Source: a virus
Reading direction: 5' to 3' (one strand)
Virus record (IMG/VR): IMGVR_UViG_3300032299_001001
Span: 1-64,000 of that record
DNA length: 64,000 bases
The notes beneath the pieces are model-generated. The model was given only the letters and a program-made list of their open reading frames with translations. It searched no databases and was not told where the DNA came from. Of the stretch, positions 1,345 to 34,400 are shown in pieces. The translations under genes and the position numbers were made by a program. How positions within the stretch are numbered: position 1 is the first letter of the stretch; each line of letters opens with the position of its first letter.

Positions 1345-3756
1345 ATGCCCACAGCGTTCAAACTCTTCCCATACCAAGAAAAAGCGGTAGCCGAACACCT
1401 CCGGATTCTGGACTCGGTCGGGGCGTCACTCGACGGGACCGGGTGCGGAGGCGGGAAAACGGTCATCGCGAGTGCCCTTGCTGCACGATATGCGTTAAAA
1501 GTGTGCGTTGTATGTCCTAAATCGGTGATTTTGAAATGGACAGAAACCCTGTCCAGCTTCGGGGTGAACCCCCTATTTGTCCTTAATCCCGAAAAGTTAC
1601 GGGTCGGGAACACGCCCTGGCTTAAAAAGACTTCCAAAGGAGGGAAGAAGGTCGCCTTCGAGTGGCAGCTTCCCGAGCGGTGCCTTTTGATTTTCGACGA
1701 AACGCACATGTTCGGGGCCTATAACAGCCAGAACGGGAAGATGCTCGAATCCGCTGCGGGGAACCATGCCGTCCTGATGTTGAGTGCCACGGCCGCAGAA
1801 TCCCCGCTCAAGATGAAGGCGATCGGGGTCAACCTCCGGCTGTTCACGGGCGGCTACTTCTGGAAGTGGGTGCGCGAGATGGGGGCCGAGGAAGGGCGCT
1901 GGGGTGGCCTTGAGTGGAATCCCCGCCGGCCGGAGAACAAGGAGAAGATGGAGCGGCTCCACCATTCGGTATTCGCGAATAGAGGATATCGGGTTTCCGA
2001 GGAGGAGCTACGCGAGCAGTTGCCGGATCTCATGCTCTCCGATGAGCCCCTTTGGCTCTCAGATAAAGACCGCGCTACTGTAAAGGCGCTTTATGACGAA
2101 ATGGCTGATCCGGATGATCCGGGCGGTGTCAAAAACCTCCGGCAGCGCCAAGCCCTTGAAACGGTCAAGGTCGCGTATCTGGTGGAGCGTGCCCAGGAGA
2201 TCGTCGAATCAGGCGGGTCGGTGGTCCTCTTCCTAAATTTCCATGAATCCATCGACCAAGCACGGAAGCTCCTCGAAGACGCGGGTGTCATCGACGGACG
2301 AGAAACGGCCAAAGCCCGAGCGGAAACCCAACGCCGGTTCCAAGAAAACGAACTTCGGTGTGTCATCGTCCAGATCGCGGCGGGTGGCCAATCCATCGAC
2401 CTACACGACGTGGTCGGAGAGTTCCCACGAGTTGCACTTATTTGTCCCCAGTTCTCCGGCCTTGTGGAGGAACAGGCTCTTGGACGGATACGACGGGTCG
2501 GGGCCAAGTCTCGCGCACTCGCTTTAAGGCTCTACGCACCTGGCACCGTGGAGCAGGGAGCCCTGCGTCTGACCGAGGAAAAACGGGAGAATGTAGGAAT
2601 TTTGAATGCAGGGAAAAATAATTTGAACAATGGGGTGGGTACCCCGGTCTCATCTTCCATGTTGGTAATAACGCCATCAACGGAAGAGAGGTTGCACAGC
2701 GAACACTCGCCCTCCTCACTCAAAGAGAAAGCTAAATGCCCAGGATTCCGCAACGACCAAACTCGCGACAAGACCGCCGCAAACCGCGGAAATCTAGGTC
2801 ACCTCGCGACGGAAAAAGAGAACCTCGACATGATTCCGCCGGACGACCCGAAGCTGCGCGAAGCCGTCGAGATGTGCTTGCGTTATCTGTCGGCTCTCCG
2901 CAAGCCCCTCGTAAACGCTCGGGAGCTTCGGGAGCAGCGATACAACATGCTCGACCAGTTCGGGCACGTCGACCACATCATCCTGCACGGCGACAAAGCC
3001 GAGTTGGTCGATTACAAGTTTGCCTTCGGGGAATACGTAGCGGATTCGCCGCAGTTCTGGGCCTATGCCGTCGGGTTGTGGGATGCCCATCCTGAAGTCG
3101 AACAACTGACTGTTCATGTCCTTTTACCTTTCCGGGGGGTCATAGACCGCGAAACGTGGTCCCGGGAAAAAGACTACGATCGTCTGTCAGCGCAAACTGC
3201 CGCCATCATCGCTTCGGCGAGGCGGGATGACCCCTCGACCTATTTAACAGGGGCACACTGCGCTTGGTGCGCCCGCCAAGCCAGTTGCCCGAAACTTTCG
3301 TCTTTGGCCCTGACCATCGCGTCTGAATATAAGGCCGACGAACTCACGCTGCCGGCGCAATACGATCCGGCCAACATCTTTGACCCGCACGTTATTGCGT
3401 TCGCCAAGAAGGCAGCGCCGATCATGCGGTCATGGGCCGATAAGGTCGACGCCCGCGCTCTCGAAATGCGGATGCAAGAAGGAATCGAAATTCCTGGGTT
3501 CGAACTCGCCGAGCGGAAATCCCCTTTCAAGATCACCAACGCCCAAGCCGCGTGGGAGACGGTCAAAGATCAAATTACCCCTGAAGCCTTCGCCGCCTGC
3601 GCCGAGGTCAAGATCGGGGAACTGGAGAAAGCCATCGCACGGACCGCCAAGCGCGGCGAGATGGCCCGCTCCAAAGAACAACTTCGTGACGCATTGGTAG
3701 ACGCCGATGCGGCCAAGTCCGAGGGGACTTATCACTACCTGAAGAAAACCAAGTAA
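1345..3756 (+). CDS. SF2 helicase fused to Cas4/RecB-like (DUF2800) nuclease
   Basis: 803 residues in two parts. Residues 1-430 form a superfamily 2 helicase: Walker A GCGGGKT at 33-39, DETH box near 119, motif III LSAT near 146 and motif VI QALGRIRR near 377. Residues 455-803 resemble DUF2800/Cas4-type exonucleases: a SPSSLKEKAKCPG entry, DHIILHGDKAELVDYK with the D...E-x-K active site near 540-556, and a cluster CAWCARQASC near 639 that with Cys of KCPG could hold an Fe-S cluster. The joint (430-455) is low-quality sequence containing a GTAATAAC motif, so the nuclease may also start internally at ATG 2659 or TTG 2692. Role: recombination or replication end-processing. Confidence 0.85.
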   Translation: MPTAFKLFPYQEKAVAEHLRILDSVGASLDGTGCGGGKTVIASALAARYALKVCVVCPKSVILKWTETLSSFGVNPLFVLNPEKLRVGNTPWLKKTSKGGKKVAFEWQLPERCLLIFDETHMFGAYNSQNGKMLESAAGNHAVLMLSATAAESPLKMKAIGVNLRLFTGGYFWKWVREMGAEEGRWGGLEWNPRRPENKEKMERLHHSVFANRGYRVSEEELREQLPDLMLSDEPLWLSDKDRATVKALYDEMADPDDPGGVKNLRQRQALETVKVAYLVERAQEIVESGGSVVLFLNFHESIDQARKLLEDAGVIDGRETAKARAETQRRFQENELRCVIVQIAAGGQSIDLHDVVGEFPRVALICPQFSGLVEEQALGRIRRVGAKSRALALRLYAPGTVEQGALRLTEEKRENVGILNAGKNNLNNGVGTPVSSSMLVITPSTEERLHSEHSPSSLKEKAKCPGFRNDQTRDKTAANRGNLGHLATEKENLDMIPPDDPKLREAVEMCLRYLSALRKPLVNARELREQRYNMLDQFGHVDHIILHGDKAELVDYKFAFGEYVADSPQFWAYAVGLWDAHPEVEQLTVHVLLPFRGVIDRETWSREKDYDRLSAQTAAIIASARRDDPSTYLTGAHCAWCARQASCPKLSSLALTIASEYKADELTLPAQYDPANIFDPHVIAFAKKAAPIMRSWADKVDARALEMRMQEGIEIPGFELAERKSPFKITNAQAAWETVKDQITPEAFAACAEVKIGELEKAIARTAKRGEMARSKEQLRDALVDADAAKSEGTYHYLKKTK
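2665..2672 (+). promoter_or_regulatory. GTAATAAC junction motif inside fused gene
   Basis: An exact copy of the motif, followed by GCC as at 3753, 8896 and 20372, lying at the domain joint of the helicase-nuclease fusion. It is read in frame as Val-Ile-Thr, so the tandem stops are out of frame. Downstream in-frame TTG at 2692 would give a nuclease beginning MHSEHSPSSL, close to where family members normally begin. Confidence 0.5.
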
Positions 3757-8909: not shown

Positions 8910-11228
8910 ATGAACCCCACACCTGAAGAACTCGGAATTAAACCCTGCCCAGCCTCCGGCCAAGGATGCCACTCATGGATGTTCAGGGCAGCGCACGCGC
9001 TGGTTGCTAACTCTTACGATGACCAATTCATCGACCAGTGGATCACTCACTACCTTGAGCGCCCACCCCAACCCCGCGAGATCGCCGACACGGTCTCCAA
9101 AGTCCGCGCCGAGGTCGAGGGGCTGATCGAGCCCAAGGCCCGTGTCTCTCTCAAACGGGCGTTTGATCCCGAGAAGCTCAAGGCCCTGACCGCGGAAGGC
9201 CCGCTTCCGGTGGAAGATTTCCTCCAGTCCTCGCCTGTCGCGGTCGCCGACATCACCGCGTCCGAGTTCCTCCGCCGACTCTACCCAAAGCAGGCGAACA
9301 TCATCTTCACCGACCAGCAGTCCCAGGGGAAGCTCGTCTGGAACGAGACGGTGCCCGACCTATTGGTCGATAACGCGATCACTAAGAACACCGAAGGTGC
9401 GTGGATCATGGTCAACCCGGTGAACGGCAAGTTCCTCGCCATTCCGCGACTCGGTAAGAAGTCTCAACGGGCCGAGGAGAACTTGGTCGCCTACGAATAC
9501 CTCCTCATCGAATCCGATTCGGTCGAGATGGAACTCTGGCTCCGTGTCCTCTCCAAGCTCGACCTCCCGATCGTCACGGTGACGACCTCGGGCTCGAAGT
9601 CCGCTCACGCTCTCGTGCGCGTTGGCCAGAAAGACCGCGAAGGCTACTTGGCCCGTGCCGCGGAGATCGCCGATCTCGTCGTCCCGCTCGGCGCGGACCC
9701 CGCTGCCATGTCCGCGGTGCGCCTGACCCGGGTTCCAGGTTGCATCCGCAAGGACACGGGGAAAGCTCAGACCTTGATCTACTTCAACCCGGAGGCGGGA
9801 GTTTTAATCCCATCGAGCGGGATGGGATTAGAATCAAGCGACGAAGTATCAGATAATGATACAAACTGTCAGGATTCGACAGCTTCTAGCAAACCGTCCA
9901 CTTCCGCAGAGAAGAGTGGACAGTATGACGACATCTACTACGACGGGAAAACCTTCTTCATGCGAGCGGGCGACGGGATCTGGCGCTACGAGATGGTCGC
10001 GATGCTGTCCAGTGAACTCAAATGCCGCAACATCTCCGACCGAGCCCCGAAAGGTGCAGCCATGTCGCCAATGGACCGCGCCAAAGCATTCATCCGCGAA
10101 CACCGCCGGGTCGATGGTGCCGGCCCCAGCCTATACAACCCGAACGAACTTTGGTTTGAGGGGGGCAAGAAATACCTGAACACCGCCAAGAACGTGAAGA
10201 TTATGCCCGCGGCCGAGACCGCCGGAGCTTGGGGTGTCGAGTTCCCCCGCTACGCAGCCATCCTCGACAACGTCTTCGCCCACCTCGACTACCGCGACTT
10301 CTTCATGGCGTGGCTGAAACGCTTCTACGAGTCCGCGGAAAAAGGGAAACTCTGCATGGGGCAAGCCATGATCCTGGTCGGACCCGTCCACTGCTATAAG
10401 ACCTTCTTCATCGAGCGCCTCCTCAAGCCGGCGATGGGCGGCTACGCCGACCTTAGTTCCATCGTCTCGGGCGAGGGCAACGGATTCAACGCCGACCTCT
10501 TCCAGTCCCCGCTCGCGATCATCGACGACACCAAGGCCGCGGAGAGTGAGGCCCAGACCAACCGCTACTCCTCGGCCATCAAGAAGCTCGTGGCGCACGG
10601 CACCCACAAATACCACGAGAAGTATCTGACCCCGATCATGGTCGAATGGCGCGGCCGAGTCGTCATCGCCGCCAACGACGATCCAGTCTCAATCAAAGCG
10701 GTCCCCGCTCTCGATATGTCCAACAAGGACAAGATCATCGCGCTCGCCCTCAAGACCTTCGAGGAAGGGCCGACGGTCGACGATCTCAAGGACGTGGAGA
10801 TCGAACTGCCGGCCTTCCTCGCGTGGCTCAAGGCTTGGGATATCCCCGCCAAATATATCGACGCGGCCAACCGCTACTATGTGATGAGCTACATATCCCC
10901 GGAGGTCATGGAGAAGATCGCCGCGGCCAGCCCGTCCGCGGAACTCCGCGACACGATCAACGCTTGGTGGGACCGCCGGGATGGTAATGAATGGGAAGGC
11001 ACCGCGGTCGAACTCCACCAGTCGTTCAACGATACCTTCGACAATGCGTCCCTGACCCGCCAATGGACGGTGCGCTCGATCGGGCGGCGGTTGGGTGAAC
11101 TCCAGAGCCAAGGTGACCCGAACGTGGAACTCGTCGCGAAACGCTCGGGCAAAGCGAAACTCTACAAATACCGGCTGACCCGACCGAAGATCGAGCCGGA
11201 ACCGGAGCCAGAGCCGGAGGTGTTTTAA
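8910..11228 (+). CDS. Primase-helicase (AEP-like primase + SF3 helicase)
   Basis: 772 residues. The N-terminal 320 residues hold a primase-like part: YEYLLIESDS supplies an acidic strand, TTSGSKSAHALVRV the conserved basic strand, and RLTRVPGCIRKD the downstream motif found in archaeo-eukaryotic-type phage primases. A low-complexity serine/aspartate linker (310-345) follows. Then comes a superfamily 3 helicase: Walker A LVGPVHCYKT near 490, Walker B LAIIDD near 535 and VVIAANDDP near 585, ending in an EPEPEPE tail. It should prime and unwind at the replication fork. Confidence 0.8.
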   Translation: MNPTPEELGIKPCPASGQGCHSWMFRAAHALVANSYDDQFIDQWITHYLERPPQPREIADTVSKVRAEVEGLIEPKARVSLKRAFDPEKLKALTAEGPLPVEDFLQSSPVAVADITASEFLRRLYPKQANIIFTDQQSQGKLVWNETVPDLLVDNAITKNTEGAWIMVNPVNGKFLAIPRLGKKSQRAEENLVAYEYLLIESDSVEMELWLRVLSKLDLPIVTVTTSGSKSAHALVRVGQKDREGYLARAAEIADLVVPLGADPAAMSAVRLTRVPGCIRKDTGKAQTLIYFNPEAGVLIPSSGMGLESSDEVSDNDTNCQDSTASSKPSTSAEKSGQYDDIYYDGKTFFMRAGDGIWRYEMVAMLSSELKCRNISDRAPKGAAMSPMDRAKAFIREHRRVDGAGPSLYNPNELWFEGGKKYLNTAKNVKIMPAAETAGAWGVEFPRYAAILDNVFAHLDYRDFFMAWLKRFYESAEKGKLCMGQAMILVGPVHCYKTFFIERLLKPAMGGYADLSSIVSGEGNGFNADLFQSPLAIIDDTKAAESEAQTNRYSSAIKKLVAHGTHKYHEKYLTPIMVEWRGRVVIAANDDPVSIKAVPALDMSNKDKIIALALKTFEEGPTVDDLKDVEIELPAFLAWLKAWDIPAKYIDAANRYYVMSYISPEVMEKIAAASPSAELRDTINAWWDRRDGNEWEGTAVELHQSFNDTFDNASLTRQWTVRSIGRRLGELQSQGDPNVELVAKRSGKAKLYKYRLTRPKIEPEPEPEPEVF

Positions 11229-11230
11229 CC

Positions 11231-11560
11231 ATGCACAACGCTGGTGAATTAGAAACGCTCCGCGGCATCTGTCGGCTGGCACTGTGCCCCGAAACCTTGG
11301 ACGGGGATTGGCAAAACGCCGCTACCGCGTTCTTCGGATTTTGTCGGGACCGGCAGATCAACCCGTTCAGGATCGAACTACCCAAAGAAGAAAAGAAGGG
11401 TGACTTCGACTTCAAAATGCCGCAGGGGAAACACAAAGGACGGTCTATGCGCTGGATTGTCGAAAATGACGCGCCCTACGCCGAGTGGTGCGTGGAGAAT
11501 ATGAATTCCGCTTGGATCCGAAACAAATTTATAGAGCTTTTCGAGGAAGCCAGCGTATGA
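11231..11560 (+). CDS. DUF3820-like small protein
   Basis: 109 residues. The C-terminal half reads KMPQGKHKGRSMRWIVENDA then PYAEWCVENM, the signature of the DUF3820 family ('fGKyKGk ... dPsYleWvlen'). This module is often joined to exonucleases or found next to replication genes. The N-terminal half is helical. Its stop overlaps the dCMP deaminase start (ATGA), so the two are coupled. Confidence 0.7.
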   Translation: MHNAGELETLRGICRLALCPETLDGDWQNAATAFFGFCRDRQINPFRIELPKEEKKGDFDFKMPQGKHKGRSMRWIVENDAPYAEWCVENMNSAWIRNKFIELFEEASV

Positions 11561-11982
11561 ACGCCAAATGGACCGCGAGGTTTATTAACTTAGCCTCGCA
11601 CGTTGCCACATGGTCCAAGGACCCCAGTAGCCAAGTCGGGGCCGTCATCGTCCGGCCAGACCGCTCGATCGCCTCAGTCGGCTTCAATGGGTTCCCCCGC
11701 GGGGTCGAGGATCGGGTGGATAGAATTAGCGATAGATCTGCAAAACTGTTGTTCACTTTGCACGCCGAGATGAATGCCATCCTCGGGGCCAAGGAGCCCC
11801 TCCAGGGCCACTCGATCTTTGTCTACCCCTTCCAGCCGTGCGCCCACTGCGCGGCTGCTATCGTCCAAGCAGGCATCAAAGAAGTCTACTGCCCGGAGCA
11901 CTCGGTTCCCCGATGGGAGGAGAGCTTCGCTGCCGCACGCACCATGTTCCATGAAGCAGGAACCGTGGTTCGGTGGATCTAG
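11557..11982 (+). CDS. dCMP deaminase family protein
   Basis: 141 residues from the ATG overlapping the previous stop. Typical zinc deaminase: SQVGAVIV and GFNGFPRGVED (substrate loop), HAEMNAI with the zinc His and catalytic Glu near 69-71, and PFQPCAHCAAAIVQAGI with the two zinc cysteines near 94-97. The reaction is dCMP to dUMP, feeding dTTP synthesis. No thymidylate synthase is in the window. It is the last gene before the repeat-rich region. Confidence 0.9.
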   Translation: MNAKWTARFINLASHVATWSKDPSSQVGAVIVRPDRSIASVGFNGFPRGVEDRVDRISDRSAKLLFTLHAEMNAILGAKEPLQGHSIFVYPFQPCAHCAAAIVQAGIKEVYCPEHSVPRWEESFAAARTMFHEAGTVVRWI

Positions 11983-12080
11983 TTCGCTAGAACTACCCAA
12001 ACGCCTCCTCACCTCCTCGCTGGTCGACGGGACAAGCTGCACCGGAAAATGATACATGGTTCCTATGTGCTTATTTAGGG

Positions 12081-12357
12081 GGAACTATGATATTAGTTCC
12101 ACCCTAAGTTCCCTCGCATAACCCAATGCCCGATAGGGGCTTATGCCAAAAGGGAACTGAGGAACTCACTTTTCGGGAAAACCCTACTGTCGTGCGCGTC
12201 CGCGGGGGACGGATTTCGGGGGTATATAATATATTTTCTATGAGAGAAAGTATAAGGGTAAGTTCCTCAGTTCCCTTTTGACGTAAGTATACTGTCCATC
12301 AGCGAGTTAAGTGTGGGAACTATGGGGGGAACTATTAGGGGAACTTTGCATAGTTCC
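12081..12357. repeat. GGAACT/AGTTCC repeat cluster, candidate replication origin
   Basis: Eleven copies of GGAACT or its complement lie within 277 bases. Forward: 12081, 12153, 12161, 12316, 12328, 12340. Reverse: 12095, 12107, 12261, 12269, 12352. They flank an AT-rich core (TATATAATATATTTT near 12224-12238). The 392-base gap from 11983 to 12374 holds no gene. Genes on both sides point into the region, so it need not contain promoters for them. Iterons around an AT-rich core, just after replication genes, are what a phage origin looks like; a structured RNA is the alternative. Confidence 0.6.
12148..12279. repeat. 19-bp perfect inverted repeat around AT-rich core
   Basis: AAAAGGGAACTGAGGAACT (12148-12166) is matched exactly by its reverse complement at 12261-12279. 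The 94 bases between contain a GC-rich part and then the AT-rich core. Each arm holds two GGAACT units spaced 8 bases apart. The separation is too great for a simple terminator. Confidence 0.75.
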
Positions 12358-12374: not shown

Positions 12375-12524
12375 TCAACCCTGCCGGCTGACGATATAGA
12401 GCCCGATCTGGGCGAAAGCATATCCGCCCCACACGATCGCCAACGGCCACTTACCGGATAACGCCATCTCAATCGCAACCCAAGCGTAGGCCACGCCGGT
12501 CGCCGCGATCAGCCAGCCGGACAC
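12375..12524 (-). CDS. Small two-span membrane protein
   Basis: 49 residues from a GTG that overlaps the TAG of the upstream gene (TAGTG). Two hydrophobic spans, WLIAATGVAYAWVAIEMAL and WPLAIVWGGYAFAQIGLYIV, are joined by a short SGK turn. Could be holin-like or an envelope modifier; it is not beside the lysis genes. The longer upstream frame is a shadow of the next gene. Confidence 0.5.
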   Translation of the reverse strand: MSGWLIAATGVAYAWVAIEMALSGKWPLAIVWGGYAFAQIGLYIVSRQG

Positions 12525-12742
12525 TACCAGACCCTCAGATCGCGCTCGGAGAGGATCTCGGCCAGTTTCTCGCGGACCTTGTCGAAGATCGCGTATTCTT
12601 CGGCCGAGTGGTCGGCGTACTTGGTCTCGGACTTGAGGTAGTTGAAGAGGTCGTCGACCGCCCATCGCCAATCGGAGCCCTTCCGGGCGTCGGTCAGGGC
12701 CTCGTCGTCTTGGGGGAGGTTGAACTCCAGGGTGGCTTTCAT
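12524..12742 (-). CDS. Small acidic hypothetical protein
   Basis: 72 residues, helical and acidic (VDDLFNYLKSETKYADHSAE, IFDKVREKLAEILSERDLRV). It is coupled to the membrane protein that follows it on the minus strand. The reading resembles short phage proteins of unknown function. Upstream, 12743-12905 holds no gene and is AT-rich on the left. Confidence 0.6.
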   Translation of the reverse strand: MKATLEFNLPQDDEALTDARKGSDWRWAVDDLFNYLKSETKYADHSAEEYAIFDKVREKLAEILSERDLRVW

Positions 12743-12905: not shown

Positions 12906-13412
12906 TCACAAGGGTTCGGAATCTTTGTGTCCGACAGAGTAATCACCCTCTATTGTGTCACTTTGTATACTTTGCAGCGTTGACCCGGAATCGGTGTAAC
13001 TCCCTAACAATGCGATGTTTACCACGTTCTTGTCCTCCTGCCTATCGAGGCCAACAATCTTCCCCGCTATCTCTGTAGCAATCTTTACCTTGTCAGCCTT
13101 GGCAAGCAGTTGGTCTTCAGGTAGTTGCGAAGCATAGGTAGTCATTCGGCTTCCAATGGTGTGGATATTTTCCCGGATAGCTTCCCGGCGCTCTGCCCAA
13201 ATGTCCCGCGCTATCTCCGTGCTTTTCTCTGTAATCTGTTCCTTGCGTTCCTTCTCTGTTCCGACGATCGCGTTCCATCCTTTCTTGGAAGCCTTTGCGC
13301 GTAAGGTATTTGCGTTGATCCCGAAGCGTTCCGAAAGAGTCGCAACCGGGACGCCTTGAAGGTAGAGACCTTTCACCACGTCCCAATCAACCGGAAGAGA
13401 AGCCTTGGGCAT
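12906..13412 (-). CDS. HTH DNA-binding protein, candidate small terminase subunit
   Basis: 168 residues. The N-terminal 50 residues form a helix-turn-helix: DWDVVKGLYLQGVPVATLSE, RFGINANTLRAKASKKGW. A long charged helical region follows (60-130). Short phage proteins of this layout include small terminase subunits and DNA-binding regulators. The large terminase lies at 62.8 kb with no small subunit visible beside it inside the window, so this is one candidate. Its transcription starts at about 13.43 kb, facing away from the cassette array. Confidence 0.55.
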   Translation of the reverse strand: MPKASLPVDWDVVKGLYLQGVPVATLSERFGINANTLRAKASKKGWNAIVGTEKERKEQITEKSTEIARDIWAERREAIRENIHTIGSRMTTYASQLPEDQLLAKADKVKIATEIAGKIVGLDRQEDKNVVNIALLGSYTDSGSTLQSIQSDTIEGDYSVGHKDSEPL

Positions 13413-24874: not shown

Positions 24875-25457
24875 GTTTCTCATTGAGCCAGCACCAGGAT
24901 GGGAAGGTGTAGCCTTGGCTGACCTCTTGAGCGACATCCTGCGGCAACCAGATTTTCGCTTTGATCGCGCAGCCACAGACCCCGCATTGGTTGAGCCGTG
25001 AAGCATAAGCCGTGGTCCGTGCACCGATCAGGTTGAAGAGCCATTCGGCCAACCCCTTGCACCGCCAGCACCCCTTGACCATTGTGTTCAGGGGACATGA
25101 GGCACAGAGCGCGGCCCGGCGTTCGGCTTCGGGTTGATCAACAAGTCCCCTGCCCCTAAGTGCGGAGACCGCGGCTTGGATGAAACGCTTAACGTCCTCC
25201 ATCGTGAAGTGGGTCTTGAGTGCGTAGTCACCCTCGATGACGTGGCTGCAACTCTCACTGCCGATCGGAAGCTGGGCACAGACAAAGTCTTGGATGTCGG
25301 CCGAAGGATCACCCGCCGCAAGACTATTGGACTTACGATGGGTCGCCACCTTCTTGACCAGTTCGCGCAAGGTCGAAGCGGCAAACTCGAAGCCCGTCTC
25401 CGGTTGAACATAACGCCAACCGCCGGGCGGGGTCACTCTGGTATCGGTTACTATCAT
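24837..25457 (-). CDS. Cysteine-rich zinc-binding-like protein
   Basis: 206 residues. The C-terminal half has RRAALCASCPLN, KGCWRCKGLAEW and NQCGVCGCAIKAK, three paired-cysteine units that probably bind zinc. The N-terminal half has a GWRYVQPETGFEF strand motif and FAASTLRELVKKVATHR, seen in small phage proteins. The end (LPTGIEPVSQP) is coded by the antisense of the tRNA. Start overlaps the stop of the giant gene (ATGA), so it is the last gene of the virion operon. Confidence 0.65.
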   Translation of the reverse strand: MIVTDTRVTPPGGWRYVQPETGFEFAASTLRELVKKVATHRKSNSLAAGDPSADIQDFVCAQLPIGSESCSHVIEGDYALKTHFTMEDVKRFIQAAVSALRGRGLVDQPEAERRAALCASCPLNTMVKGCWRCKGLAEWLFNLIGARTTAYASRLNQCGVCGCAIKAKIWLPQDVAQEVSQGYTFPSWCWLNEKPLPTGIEPVSQP

Positions 25458-28400
25458 CGATCGGCAAGGATTTCGCGGGGCACGGCCGAGCGGCGGGCTT
25501 GGTTGTAGGCGGAGACGCGGTCGTTTTTACCGCGGGACCGAACCAAGTCTATGCTCTGCTTGCTCGCGTCGTAGGGTTTGTATATTCCGGTGGTCACCAT
25601 TTTGATGGTGTCGCCGCCGAGACCTCCGTCACGGAGGATCGCTTTGGCCCGCTGCACAGACACCCCGAGACGGATCGCGGCGAGGTAGTCCCTGCGAATT
25701 GAGTCGATCAGGCTGCGCCGGGCGGCGTTGGACCGAGCATAGCCGTCGATCACGTCGCCGGCCGAGCGGGTGCCTTGGGCGGTGAACTCGCGGTTGAAGA
25801 GGGCCGAGGCATCGCGCATCTCGCGCATGAAGCGGGAAGATTTGAACTGGAGTGCCTGCTGCGCGTCGACCGAGGAGACACGCTGGCCGAGTGCGACACT
25901 GGAAAGCTCGTTGATGAGGTTGTAGGAACGTCCGGTCTCGCTCTCGATACCGAAGGCGGCTTTACCGATACGCTCGGCGCTGTTCACGGTGCCGGGGACG
26001 AAAGGATCGTAGAAGATCTTGCGGGCTACATTGAGACCGATGTTCGCTCCGGTGTCCTGCGGGTTGTAGACCTGACGGCCGGCCGCATCACGGTTCCGCA
26101 TCACGTCCATGATCGCTCCGGCGAAGATTTGCTCGCTGGTAAAGGGATCAATGGCTTGGCGCACCATGTCCATCGTGCCCTTGAGTAAGATCTCGTCTGC
26201 ACTGCCGGGACTGCGTATTGAACGCATGAATGCGGTCAAAGGCTTTTTGAAATACTCGTAGGGGTCCAAGAAGCTGACATCGAGAAAGTCGATCTCGCCG
26301 TTTGCTTTGCGGAAGAGGACAAGCTGACTGTTCTTCTGCCAGTCGGGCAGGAAGCGGCGGAGGTCTTCTTCGTCTTCTCCGGAAATGCCCGCCATCGCCA
26401 TAGCGGCGGAGCCGACGGCAAACGGGAGGAAGGCGGCAATAGTCATGCCGCGGACCCGCTTCCAGCCGATTGCTTCGAGTTCTTTGTTGCCCGTGGCTCG
26501 GCCTTCTGTGATCTCCTGGCGGGCCAGCTTTTGCAGATTGTAAGTGGTGCGGATGACTTCGCTCGTGAAGGTCACGAACGGGGCAACGAAGGGGAACTTC
26601 TTGAGATCCTGCACAATGGCCGGGGCCAGTGAGTAGGTCCAGTGGATGTCCCGGGCGATGACTGCGGCTTTCTCCTTGATCTTGTTGTCGTCCCAGTCAG
26701 GAAAGGCTCTCCGGTATTTATCCTGCTCGGCCTCGTAGATCATCACTTTGAACCAGTCGTCACCGGCCGAGTAGGTCTTGACCGCGAAGTCGGCCACCCG
26801 CTTGAAGGGATCTCCGACTTTATTCCAAACGAAGTCCCCGAAGTCAGGGCTCCCGGCGCGGCGGCTGGCCGTGAGGAGATCTTCAAGGAGTCCGGTGGTG
26901 ATCGACTCGCCGACGATACCGCGGCGGATATAGTCGTCGATTTTCACCCGCCACTCGGCGCGGCTCATGTTGCGATATTTCCCGAAGGTGCTGGCCAGCA
27001 CAGTGTCGGTAGAGTTGGCGAACCGTCGCTTAAAGTCGCCGCTGGTAATATCGTCCAACCCCAAGTTCCCGCCTGCGATTAGTGGCATGTAGTTACCGAA
27101 GAAGTTCCGGACCTGGGACGCCACCGATCCGACCGTCTTGGTCGCCATCGAGATGCCGGTCAGCTTCATCAAAGCACGCAGCCAAGCGTAGTGCTCCTCG
27201 GTCGAGCCAACCGGGAACATCTTGAAGAGCCCCTCGGCCAGATCCGGATGCACATACATCCCACCAAGAGGTCTCAGTGAAGGATTCTTCTCGGTTGAAA
27301 TACGGACGTAGCCGGGCGGGTGACGGGTATCGTCGGGGTTGTTCTCACGACTCCAAAGCCAGCCCTCTTGGATACCGAGGTCCCGCAGTTCCTTGAGGAA
27401 GTTATCGTTGGCGATGACGCTGGAGAGCTTCATTACCGTCTTGGCATAGTTGACGCTCGGATCTTCGTAGCGACCCCAAAGGGCTTGGATCTCCGGCGCG
27501 ATGTTGCCGCGCTGGTTGAACATGCTGAGATTCTTCTGCCCGGGGATGCGGCCGGAGAGCACCTCGATCGTCGGGGCCTCTGCGCCGATCGCGAGATAGC
27601 CTTCGAGGAGGTTCTCGACCTCGTCGTCGATCACTGAATCGTTGGCGAGTGCTTCGGCGTCGATACGGGAAAGTGTGCGGCCTTCGTCGGCAGCATCAGC
27701 GATCAGGTCTTGGGCTTTCGCTTTAGCCAAGCTGTTGCGGATATACTTACGGGCCGCGTCCATGACCTTGGCATCTTTTCGCACACGGTCAGTCCACTGC
27801 GGATCATCGAAGATCGCATAGCTACGGTTAAGGTAGGTGCCGAGCGCCTCATCAACTGTGATCGCCAAGTCGCCATTGACCAAACCCTCGTTAGGCAACT
27901 GCCGTGAAAGCGACTCGATGTGTGAGGACATCTCGCGGATCGTCGCAGCCAGTTCTTCCGGCAACTGGGCCAGGGCTTGCGTCTGTTTGTTCTGCTTAAA
28001 GTTGCGGCGGTTGTCGCGGATGTATTGGTCGCGCTTCTTGGCGGCTTGATTGGTCAACCCGCGAGCCCGCAAATCTTCAATTTCGCCGATCTGCTGCTCG
28101 GTGAGCGGGTTGTCCAAGTTACCGAGCGCCGTGTTGATCGTCTCCAGGGGCGGTGTCTCACCTTTGTAGAAATTTTTAATCTGCCGCTCCAACACCCGGG
28201 AGAGGTCTTGGATCTTCGACACATCGACTTTGATCGCCATCCGGCTTGAGCGGTAGAGATCGCCGGCCCGCTTATCGAGAAGCTCGTCGACGGCAAACAT
28301 ACCACCGCGGCTGATTGTGCCTCCCGTCGGCGTGCGGCGGGTCACCGGACGCCAGACTCGCCCGCGGGCTCGGGATTCGTTCGGTTGGTCCACCGCGCCA

Positions 28401-31400
28401 CTAGCTGCGTTCGACTGTATGGAAATTTGAACGTCGAAGGGGACCACGACTTTCTTTTTCCCGATCTTGACGGTCTTTACGTTTCCTGGAACGACATCCC
28501 AAACACGTTGAACCTCACCATTACGAACGCGCACCCAGGATCCATCGTCCTGTTTCGTGAACTTTAACTCATCGCGGAAGTAGCTGTTGATTTCGGGGAT
28601 CGTTGAATCTCTTCCCTTAATGTAGGGTTGCGAGGTGACGATTCGTGGGAAGGGCTCCCCAAGATCGACAAGTCCCTCAAGGCGAATGTCGATGTTGAAA
28701 AGTTTTTTGTGGGCATTGAGATTCGTGAGGTAGTCAAAAACATTGATCGACTGACCGACCACCCCGCTCCCGGTCACATCCGGATTGGTGTATTTGATGA
28801 CACGGTTGGTCGGCTTGTCCGAGTGGACTTGGTGCTCGGAACCGTCGCCGATCTTCTTACGGCCATTAATGACCGTGTTCTCAAAACTCTCAGGATCAAG
28901 GATGAGCCCTTGCTCTTCGAGGACGTTGATGAGTTCCTCGAACGCAGCCGCGCCTTGGGCACGACGGCGCTGTTCTAATCGTTGATCGGCTTGCCCGCCA
29001 GTGTCGGCACGAAACCGGAAGCTCTCGCCTGCGCCGAGATCTCGGCCTCGGTTGGCGGATTCTTGGAGGCGTAGTAAAGCCCTTCCGATGTTCCCTTCAG
29101 GGCTTCCCGTTCGCGGTCGTCCTCGAAGGTTTCCTTCGGCATCTTGGTAGATGAGATTCGGGCTTTCACCGACGGCGCGGCTTTCGTTGAGGTCTTCATT
29201 TGGTAGAGTCAGTCCTGCTTCGGCTGCGAGTTCGGAAAGCCGGGTAGCTCGAACGCTGTCGGGCCGTCCAGTGTCGCGTCCCGCCAACCGGCTTCTTGCA
29301 ATAGCCGATCCCACTGTTCGAGCGTAAGCGGCTCGCCCGGCTTCACGGGAATCTTCGTTGCCGAGGAAGTTGCCGGTTCCTTTGTAATATTTTGTTTCAT
29401 AGTTATTACTTGAGACTAACTCTCTGACGGGCAAAAAGAGCGAGCCGTTCTTATCAAAAATTAAGACACGAGTCCCTCCGTTTTGTTCAATCAAAGTCCG
29501 GAATTGGATCCCGGCTGTCTCTAAAATACCACGGGATTGGTCTGCCGTCTGATTTGGGATAAAGACATCATAAAGTCTAGAAGTGCCTTCTGAGTCTCTC
29601 AGGAATGGAATTACTTGCTTCTGGTTTCTCAGTGCCCCCTTGAGCGCGGCCATTACCTCTACGTCCTCATACGTCAGTCCCGGAGCATAGTGCTCGGTTA
29701 CCGTCGTGGGCTCCGCGCCGTCTGCCCAATCTCCGATAGCGTCACTGACTCGGCTTTGATCTAGCCCGAAAACCGTATGAATCCTACTGGCAAACGCCCT
29801 GAGTTGCTCTTGCTGCGTTCCAGTCAACGCCGCCCGGGCCTGTGCAAATGTCAGATTCTCCCGTTCATTAGGGGAGACAAACTCCATCGCCACCGCCCGA
29901 CTCTCCGTCACAGTGTCCGCAGCCAAGGCACCCCGCCAATCCATGAACTCCTCGGGGAGAAGGGCCACCTTCTGCGTGGCAAAAGGACGCTCGGAAGCAG
30001 GAACCTTGATCCGTGTTCCGTCAGCCGCGTAGTTGTGAGCCCCATAATTGACCCAGGAATTCTGCCCCCGGGTCTCGGTGGTCAGCGCCCTCTGGGCCAG
30101 CGGGGTGAACATCTGGCTGTGCTTGATCCAGGCGTTCTCCTCGCCGCGGGCTCCGAACTGGTAGTCCTCGGCTGCGTGACCGAAGAGATCGTGGATCGCA
30201 CGCAGCTTGTCATTCATCGTCAGCCCGTCGGCATCGGGCTGGTTGAGGAGCGGGTGCGGTTCACCGCCCGTGAAAAACCACAAGTGTTTGTTATCCCGGA
30301 CATCGCGCACCATCTCCCGGGAATTGGCGTAGGGTTGCCCCTCGGTTGTCCACGGCTCGAAGGTGACTCCCATCGTATTGATGGCATAGTCCCACTGCTG
30401 CTGGATCTCGAAGCCCAGTTGCCGGTAGGCGTCCTGGGTCTCCCGACCTTCATCGAGGACCGGGAGTGCGTCATAAGCCGCAGCGATGCTGCGAGCCCGT
30501 TGTTCGTCGACTGGGGCGTAGTGCCCGCGGACTACTTCGCCGAGCCCGTAACGGGCATTGTAGGCACTGACTCCTTCTTGGACGAAGGGGTTTGGCTCGG
30601 CGTTGGGCCGAACTGTTTGCCTTTGAACTTGGTCGCCTCCACTTGCGGATCCCATCCCTGGGGTGGTCGCTTGTAGGGCAGGTTGGTTTCTTCTGTCATT
30701 GGTTGCTCCTTGGTTAGACAAAGCCTCGCGGCTTTCGTTAGAAATTGCTCTCGATTCTTGGGGGGTCTGGATGGTGACCGGCTCTACAAAATCCCGAAGA
30801 TCAGGGATTTCCCACCACCTGACTTGCCGCTGCGGGATAAAGGCGGCGTCCCGCATCTGCGGTGTCAGATCACCCGCCCGCATCCCCGTGGGGAAGATGT
30901 GCACTGGAACCGGGACGGTTCCGTAAACTTCCCGCACGGCATCGATTCTGGACCGACCTTCATGGTCTTTAATTTTCCAGACACCAGCCGTGTCATCCCA
31001 AGTTGCACTGAGGAACGGAGGACCGAGCTTCTCGCCGCGGCTGAGTGCGCCAACAACAAAATCTTTAGTCTCGGTATCGGAAACACCGCCAGGAACGAGA
31101 CGGCGGAACTCGTCCGGTGTCATGTATTTCACGAACCCGAAGTAATTGATGTCAATTTGGTTCGGAACCTGACCGATCCCTTCACGCGAATCAAAAATGT
31201 TTTCGATAGGTGAAGGACTAACCGCCCGACTCATCGTCACCGGATCAGCCAGCGTATCGACATCGGCGTCCGCTTCCTCGACCGTCGCCTCTGCACCCCG
31301 TTCCATGTTCCGTGCAGCCATGAACTCTTGCAGCAAGGCTTCACGTTCCGCGGTCGTGCCGGTCAATCCCCGGGCGATGATCTGGTCTTCAATAAAATTG

Positions 31401-34400
31401 GTTGCTTGGTCGAGGGCGGCGAGATCCTGGGCCAAGGGGTTCGCTCCGATCGGAGGTTTGGCATAGCCCTCGGTCGTGCCTTCGAGAGCACCGAAGGTCG
31501 CGGCCCACGCATCTTGGAAAGCGTTGGCCAGCGGGCTCGTCTCCGCGGTCTTCTTGCCAGAGTTGAGATCGACGATGTCGCCCCAAGCCTCGGCCACGGG
31601 TCCGGACAGCGAGGTCTTCTTGCCTTTGGTCTTGGCTTTACCGAGCCCGAGTTGCAGGGCGAGCTTGAGAAATTCCGGACTCTCCATGAGACCGCGTGCG
31701 GTCTCCTCGGCATTGACCAGATAGGCAAAGCGGCGATCGGCATCGGCTCCGACCACGTTCGGGTTGGAGAGGTCATCGACCTGACGGCTCAACTGCGCCA
31801 GTGTTGTGGGGTTATTACCCGCGGGGACTTCGAGACCGTTGGTCCGGGCGACAGCCTTGAGCATTCGCACACGGAAGGCTTCGATTCCTTTGATCGCGGC
31901 CTTCTCGACGGTGTTGAGTTTTTCCAGTCTGGCGAACTTTGTTTTGGAGAACACATGGGCGATCTCGTGCAACATGGTCAGCCCGATGTCATCGGCCTCA
32001 TGCCAGTTATCGAGGTTGAGCACGACCGAGTAGCGGCCGACTGGCGAAGTCGCGTTCTCGTCGACTCCGAGCACACCGGCCCAAGAGGTCCGCGTCTGTC
32101 CGGTCACAAGATCGAACGCCCGTGCCCGGGCTTCTTTGCCGGCTTGTTTGCGGGTGCGCCCCGACTCACCGCCGAAAGCATACGTCTCCACGCCACCCGG
32201 AGTGGTCACCTCGAAGACACCCTCACCTTCCTCGCCTTGAACTTCCTGCACCCGAGCCCGCACTTCTTCACCGCGCAAAGGCTGGGTCGCGAAGTTGCGG
32301 CGGAAGATACCGACCTGCATCGCGATGTCATCAATGTTGAGACCGAACCGCTGACCCTGGCTCAAGACGACCTTGGCAATCATCCGCATGAACGCCGGTC
32401 GGTCGCCATCTTGCGCCATGAACTCAAGCGCGGCCTTCGGACCTTCGAAGATCCGGCTACGCACGGCCTCTTGGGCATTGCGGCGGATCGCATCGATCCG
32501 CTCACGGTTGGCCATGTAACTGGAAAATTCCTCTTGGTATCCGGCGACGAGTTCTTCAACTGATCGACCCATCAGGTCGGCCATGTTCGCCTCGGTCGCG
32601 GCGACAACGCGGCGTCCCTTGGTCGCGGCGAGAGCGTCGAGGGTGGTCGAGACTGCTTGGTAGATCTTCTCGACGACTGCCTCAGAGAGGCCGGCGACTA
32701 GACTGCGGTCGCCGATGAAGGAGCCGACGAAGGCTCGCCTCGCGGTGCTGGCGTTCCGTTGGTCAGGAGTTCCTCCCAGGCCAAGTCCTCCACCAGATCC
32801 AGCGGGTCCAGCCGGAACAGTTCCGGTTTGGCCATCATCAGTTCGGCCCACACGGTTACGTCCCCGTTGAGTGCCCGCTCGATTACGTCCTCGCCCACGG
32901 CTTTCTGTAGGCCCTCCGGCAGCGACCGGTTGCGCTCCAGTAGTCCGCCCACGAAGATCGTTAGCATTTGCGGGTTGTCCCGAAAGTATTTCTGAACCTT
33001 GTTGGGTTCCTTGGTTGATTTGGTCATAGGTTTTATTCCCTTGGAGATACTCTAGCAGTTCTTCGACACGTTGCTGGTCGCTTTCGCTCAATTCTTCTCC
33101 GCGGAGATGGTCTTTAAGAAGGTCGTCATCCTCTTCACTCAGGCGAGAACGGCGCTCCCGAGCATCCATCGCGGCATCGCTGGTCCGCTCGGCAAACCTC
33201 TCAGCCGGAGTCTGTTGGGGCCGCGCATCTCCGGTCGTCCCCGCGGCGAGATCGGCTTCTGCCGCCCGCTGGTTACGTCCGGTCCGGACCGCCGATTTCT
33301 TGGCGCTCTGCGCCTTGGTCATCGCCGTCTTGATCGGGCTGAAATCTCCGTAGCTCTGCCAACGCTTCACGATCGGCTCGACCGCGGCCGATGCCTGTGC
33401 TGCGGTTTGCCCCGAGGCCACGAGTTCCTCGGTGATCTGACGCGCTGCTTCCTGCACATCGCGACCGGTATCGGCTCCCGTCTCGTTCTCCTGATTGCTC
33501 TCGAAGATATCGAGCATCCGGCTGTTGAACTTTTTGAAGAGCGCGAGATCGCGCACCGGAGGCACACCCTTCTTATCGCGGCCGGCCACCTGTTCGATGA
33601 TCGAGGCATCGGCTTCGTCGGAAGCCATCGCTTTGGCCTCGGGATCGAGGTCGCTGCGACGATCAATGAACCGTGCAGCCCGTGCCCGTGCATCGCCGAC
33701 AAAGAACTGGTCGGCCTCGTCGAGGCTTTCCAGCTTTGACTGCACCGAACCAACGGTTTTGCCCGCGCTCTCTTTCTGTGTCTGCTTGCCCTTGCGAGCC
33801 CGCTCACTGCGAAGTAAACGCTCGGGTGAGTTGAAATAGATATTGTCAAAACCTCCCGGGCCGGTGTTCTCCCCGTTCACCGAAAAGTCATAGGCGGCAT
33901 CTCCGCGGCGATAGGTGTTGCCGTTGTAGACGACCTTAGTCACGACGTTGGCGGTCTGACCGTTCTTCATCGTGCGCGGCTCCACTTGCACACCTTCGGG
34001 AAGATTCTGAAGCTGGTCATCCGGCACCGGGACATCGAGTCCGAGGTTCATCTGACGCACCGTGGTGAAGAGGTTCTTCATCCACTTGCCGAAGTTTACG
34101 ACTTCTTTGACCCCGGGCTCACCTTCCTTGTCGAAGTAGCGCACCTCGCCCGGCACCTTGTTCGTCTTGCCGGGGTTGGCGTAGAGACCATCGTCGAAGA
34201 ACGCCTCTTGCGGCTGACCTTCTTGGTAAGGTGTCCCAAAGACGCGCTCGGCTTTCGCCTTGGTCGGCTTCGGTCCGAGCACCGAATTAACGGCAACATC
34301 GACCGGTGACTGCTTCGGCGTGGGCTGCTTGAACATCCCGAGCCGGTTGTATTGCTGCGGGGTAAAGACGAGCTTCTCTTGGTTGCCCTCGGCATCCGGC

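Follow-up and report, generated by a model that had tools for sequence, protein, structure and literature searches.

The Rep protein of the SaPIs and Cch2 of SCCmec bind iterons downstream of their genes through a C-terminal domain (PMC7581432). The α protein of the satellite phage P4 unites primase and helicase in one polypeptide with a winged helix at its C-terminus, which is the part that binds repeats (PMC4234260). The replication proteins of pRN1 (ORF904) and of the BIP-1 phage combine an AEP primase with an SF3 helicase and carry a winged helix at the C-terminus; their origins lie 3′ of the gene (PMC4234260). For pRN1, iterons were not found, and a stem-loop was proposed as the origin; the motifs bound by AEP-SF3-winged-helix initiators were reported in 2014 as yet to be identified (PMC4234260). 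For the V. cholerae PLE, experiments have shown that the DNA-binding domain of RepA changes in step with the origin, the two being exchanged as a module and the remainder of the protein being conserved; a nuclease directed at the origin is the suspected selective agent behind the swaps (PMC8263062).

The origins of most uncultivated phages are not known. We describe an array of GGAACT repeats in a phage of about 70 kb, found in the 64,000-base stretch analysed here (the window), which covers the greater part of a virus record of 66,433 bases. Very probably, the array is the replication origin of the phage, of the iteron type, and is read by the C-terminal winged helix of an initiator that joins an AEP primase to an SF3-like helicase.

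The GGAACT array and its surroundings

The first-pass annotation pointed to eleven GGAACT/AGTTCC units, in both orientations, within 277 bases and around an AT-rich core, and suggested an iteron origin. Exact matching finds the same eleven units at 12081–12357, and the core is present as described (Table 1). Across the whole 64 kb the hexamer occurs 62 times, against 34.7 expected, and 500 Markov-1 simulations of the window gave at most four units in any 277-bp stretch. The best count of any 6-mer per 277 bp was usually 5–7 and never above 9 in 60 simulations; the real maximum is 11, and unrelated 6-mers in the real window all stay below 7. The density of the array is far above chance expectation. 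Multiple short repeats adjoining an AT-rich region are a hallmark of iteron origins, and this arrangement is present here.

The units are ordered (+,−,−), 46 bp, (+,+), about 100 bp, (−,−), 47 bp, (+,+,+,−), with the inner pairs lying inside a 30-nt inverted repeat whose arms are 90% complementary. As single-stranded DNA, the segment 12140–12290 folds strongly (z −7.5) because the units are inverted, the stem being largely made of them. A base-by-base dyad score for the whole array (z 4.04) did not rise above that of shuffled sequences (maximum 4.23); the symmetry therefore resides in the placement of the units and in the inner arms, not in every base.

The site is intergenic and lies 0.85 kb past the primase-helicase gene, with a deaminase gene in between, an order that had been given correctly. 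The convergence of the flanking genes also holds: the dCMP deaminase gene (+) ends at 11982, and facing it are small minus-strand ORFs, whose ends are at 12375 and 12524. A search of the array region against Rfam gave no match, and a promoter and terminator scan of it found no promoter-like or terminator-like site.

Table 1. Features of the array locus (window coordinates).
Feature	Position	Strand	Remarks
Primase-helicase, 772 aa, proposed initiator	8910..11228	+	
Predicted C-terminal winged-helix domain, aa 676-759, proposed origin-binding domain	10935..11186	+	predicted fold, co-variation
dCMP deaminase, between initiator gene and array	11485..11982	+	
Variant unit GGAACC (AGGAACC), possible twelfth site	12058..12063	-	
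Left outer group: units 12081(+), 12095(-), 12107(-)	12081..12112		
Left spacer	12113..12152		46 bp start-to-start between outer and inner units; 44-47 bp in relatives
Left inverted-repeat arm with inner pair 12153(+), 12161(+)	12140..12169	+	pair 8 bp apart
GC-rich (62%) part of centre	12170..12219		small hairpin potential
AT-rich core, 26% GC	12220..12257		candidate unwinding element
Right inverted-repeat arm with inner pair 12261(-), 12269(-)	12258..12287	-	pair 8 bp apart
Right spacer	12288..12315		47 bp start-to-start between inner and outer units; 45-47 bp in relatives
Right outer group: units 12316(+), 12328(+), 12340(+), 12352(-)	12316..12357		units 12 bp apart
Two small ORFs, about 12375-12527 and 12524-12742	12375..12742	-	pointing toward array

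Several points count against this reading, among them the small number of relatives (12, several near-identical) and the lack of a significant match between the C-terminus of the proposed initiator and known origin-binding families. Another is that the deaminase gene intervenes between the initiator gene and the array. A further one is GC skew, for which a switch near 12.2 kb had been anticipated: in seven of seven genomes the skew is negative to the left and to the right of the array (5-kb flanks −0.02 to −0.10), and the cumulative-skew extremes of these genomes lie away from it. With a switch at the array in none of the seven, skew was dropped as an origin marker; it is a weak test for short mosaic phage genomes.

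Other genes of the window deserve mention. The HTH protein encoded at 12906–13412 (−) has weak terminase-small-subunit-like matches. A single ORF of 3755 aa at 25454–36721 (−) has no confident family match. The product of 18645–19325 (+) weakly matches ocr-like anti-restriction proteins (phrog_2568, E 3e-4), and a single ORF at 1345–3756 (+) combines a helicase-like N-terminal half with a DUF2800/exonuclease-like C-terminal half.

Conserved layout, switched spelling and the co-varying protein segment

About 15 close relatives were recovered from viral contigs when the primase-helicase and the deaminase served as queries. Several of these are contigs of 68–74 kb that are probably complete, because their ends overlap or the start sequence recurs. 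The array is at the same location in nearly all relatives that are readable beyond the deaminase (about a dozen), and its layout is near-fixed, with about 6 + 6 sites, outer groups of 3–4 and spacers of 44–47 bp; L021, L026, L052 and L076 have twelve exact units, six per side. The spelling of the units has switched in two lineages, L020 and L022/L023. The L020 array has the same layout spelled GGGGGT, those of L022 and L023 are spelled GGGGGT or GGGGGA, and L098 mixes both spellings. The inner pairs are spaced by 8 bp in GGAACT arrays and by 8–10 bp in switched arrays. The paired motif GGAACTNNGGAACT is restricted to the array locus in GGAACT genomes and absent from the two switched genomes searched, and GGGGGTGAGGGGG is confined to these two. 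Every unit of an array, distant outer ones included, shares the change in spelling. A constant layout combined with joint respelling is the pattern expected of sites that are all read by a single protein.

The more distant deaminase relatives (L029–L051, L054–L068) have neither this primase nor the array. In cellular genomes, a primase profile search found zero relatives, and the paired-unit pattern was found on 26 contigs with a different 8-bp tandem element that lacks the outer groups. MAGs of Spartobacteria/Chthoniobacterales, together with some further bacterial contigs (L160–L182, L185), have several dispersed intergenic elements per genome in which (GGAACTCA)n and its inverse flank about 100 bp; their layout is unrelated to the array, and they are possibly REP- or MITE-like. 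Several GGAACTTTGGAACTTT pairs occur in one region, around 10910–11235, of the phage contig IMGVR_UViG_3300010411_000008 (L186), and the piece examined contains no relative of this initiator. The 17.9-kb contig L117 (G010; listed also as L159, 565–855; IMGVR_UViG_3300032607_001598) has the same 11-unit array with the exact 8- and 47-bp spacings. Its genes include an integrase, a terminase, its own CHC2-type primase and a D5-type helicase, and no relative of the AEP-type initiator is found on it. This array may be a captured origin, or the contig may be a phage fragment whose initiator sits elsewhere.

Sliding DNA identity reveals two linked islands of divergence, one at the 3′ end of the primase gene and the other at the array, whereas the deaminase gene between them behaves differently. 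Among 12 relatives, several of them near-identical, array similarity correlates with similarity of the primase-helicase C-terminus (aa 676–759, 84 aa), with a Mantel rho of 0.52 for identity and 0.66 for 5-mers (p = 0.0002 for both); given the other seven segments, the partial r is 0.52 and 0.67, respectively. When the set is reduced to 8 representatives, rho for the C-terminus is 0.61 (p = 0.02). Over the same 12 relatives, the AEP domain, the polymerase, the deaminase (rho −0.03) and the downstream ORFs give values near zero, and the helicase core correlates weakly (0.23–0.30, falling to 0.05–0.19 after accounting for the C-terminus). When 461 segments, drawn from 143 ORFs of seven genomes, are compared, the C-terminus ranks first, and the third rank is held by an antisense shadow ORF of the same C-terminus. 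Natural swaps are seen in both directions. L005 and L016 have deaminases 95% identical, C-termini 50% identical and differing arrays; in L014 and L007, the deaminases are 61% identical, the C-termini 89%, and the arrays are similar.

The predicted C-terminal winged helix is the only neighbouring segment that co-varies clearly with the array, which points to the two being a cognate protein–DNA pair. Of the two binders that had been put forward, the primase-helicase thus gains support from this specific co-variation, and the iteron reading gains it also from the place and layout conserved in a dozen relatives. For the HTH protein at 12906, co-variation is absent among the 8 representatives (rho 0.00), and on this ground it was rejected as the binder.

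The proposed initiator and its alternatives

The order of domains in the primase-helicase is an AEP-like primase at about aa 113–305, an SF3-like helicase segment (DUF5906, aa 489–591) and the C-terminal winged helix. The protein matches the profile phrog_2597, DNA primase, and its N-terminal part models as an AEP primase: modelled residues 113–297 align with RepB′ of RSF1010 (3h20, Z 8.8) and with the PrimPol of cyanophage S-2L (6zp9, Z 8.7). In Pfam, DUF5906 alone was above the cut-off, and no SF3 profile matched. The middle part nevertheless appears SF3-like by its typical motifs, the invariant stretches being a Walker A-like GPVHCxKT, a Walker B-like LAIIDD and a motif C-like VVIAANDD; the assignment rests on the motifs because the structure model of this region is poor. 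The C-terminus models as helix–strand–helix–helix–helix–hairpin (H-E-H-H-H-E-E, pLDDT about 80), and its best structural matches are mostly winged-helix proteins (Z 5.5–6.7); hence the predicted winged helix. At wing residues 744–746, GGAACT lineages have KRS or KRC, and L005, L019 and L015 have RRY or RRF, a small-sample hint of how specificity may be set. Comparison of the C-terminus with known origin-binding families gave no significant match. Its structure matches included neither Cch2 nor the origin-binding domain of P4, although little can be read into such an absence, and the Pfam matches of 13 family members included no RepA_N domain.

We propose that the C-terminal winged helix of the primase-helicase binds the GGAACT units, and that the roughly six units on each side of the centre of about 100 bp would allow two oppositely facing helicase hexamers to assemble. 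The hexamers would melt the AT-rich core, the AEP domain would prime, and the phage PolA-type polymerase would extend, with synthesis probably bidirectional. Binding of the units by the C-terminal domains has strong but indirect support, from co-variation; loading of hexamers, melting, priming and direction we infer from the domain content and from SaPI Rep/Cch2.

A different role for the same binding is conceivable. The primase-helicase might bind an array that mainly regulates something else, for example partition, late transcription or, as the crr site of P4 does, copy number, with replication starting elsewhere. The co-variation indicates a cognate pair and is silent on the pair's role, and the skew that does not switch would also suit such an array. 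We consider this unlikely, since the array is the sole one of its kind in these genomes, its AT-rich core lies inside the dyad, its proposed binder has primase and helicase domains, and the scan found nothing promoter-like there. It is more improbable still that the region acts as a folded structure, be it a large stem-loop, a cruciform or a terminator serving the convergent genes, in which the units are incidental. The strong fold would fit, and a stem-loop origin has been proposed for pRN1-type initiators (PMC4234260), but the stem is mostly built of units, the outer units switch as well, and neither a terminator-like site nor an Rfam family was found.

The co-variation itself might be produced by recombination that swaps both segments jointly, without protein–DNA contact, as these phages are mosaic and the segments are about 0.9 kb apart. 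The intervening deaminase should then travel with them even more often, yet it is uncorrelated with the array, and all the units, including the distant outer ones, are respelled together; recombination by itself is a very improbable source. Scarcely any likelihood attaches to a packaging (pac/cos) site or an operator for the HTH protein at 12906. Its gene is only 0.5 kb off and its weak matches are of the terminase type, but besides failing to co-vary, the protein is 92–96% identical between phages with different units and just 72% identical to that of L004, which has nearly the same array.

Comparison with described initiators and origins

The proposed origin and its initiator resemble SaPI Rep/Cch2 in the predicted use of a helicase that loads itself and recognizes, through its C-terminal domain, short repeats located downstream of its gene. 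They differ in that the initiator is fused to an AEP-like primase, belongs to a phage of about 70 kb with its own polymerase, and is separated from the array by the deaminase gene; the sites, about 12, have near-fixed spacing. No significant sequence match to Rep/Cch2 was found, and the DUF927 or Primase_Cterm/D5 expected of such proteins did not appear beside DUF5906 above the Pfam cut-off. P4 α likewise joins primase, helicase and C-terminal winged helix in one protein, but its primase is of the bacterial (TOPRIM) type, that of the phage being AEP by model. The order of AEP, SF3-like helicase and predicted C-terminal winged helix, and a proposed origin 3′ of the gene, are as in pRN1 ORF904/BIP-1. 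Unlike in pRN1, the stem arms are made of repeated sites that continue outside the stem; where a stem-loop origin has been proposed for AEP-SF3-winged-helix initiators, repeats would offer an alternative. The phages resemble PLE RepA in that the predicted DNA-binding domain and the proposed origin co-vary as a module and the other parts of the protein are conserved; RepA, in contrast, is a satellite-borne RepA_N protein without helicase or primase, and its iterons are about 30 bp.

The relatives amount to a natural specificity experiment, in which one layout has several spellings, each with a different predicted winged helix. The recognition code should be accessible with short duplexes (GGGAACTGAGGAACTC, GGGAACTTGGGAACTC and GGGGGTGAGGGGGTGA; GGAACT versus GGGGGTGA). 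As a tentative and rather doubtful extension, the origin spelling and the winged helix may have changed repeatedly as one matched module in a replisome that is conserved in other respects. Rivals or defences that attack origins or steal initiators may have driven these changes, and L117 is conceivably one such rival that uses the initiator of the phage in trans. Co-varying initiators and origins (PLE), C-terminal reading of repeats (SaPI) and AEP-SF3-winged-helix initiators (pRN1 and some phages) are already known. What we call new is the combination, in phages, of the AEP-SF3-winged-helix order with a predicted repeat-based, mirror-arranged origin and natural switching of its specificity.
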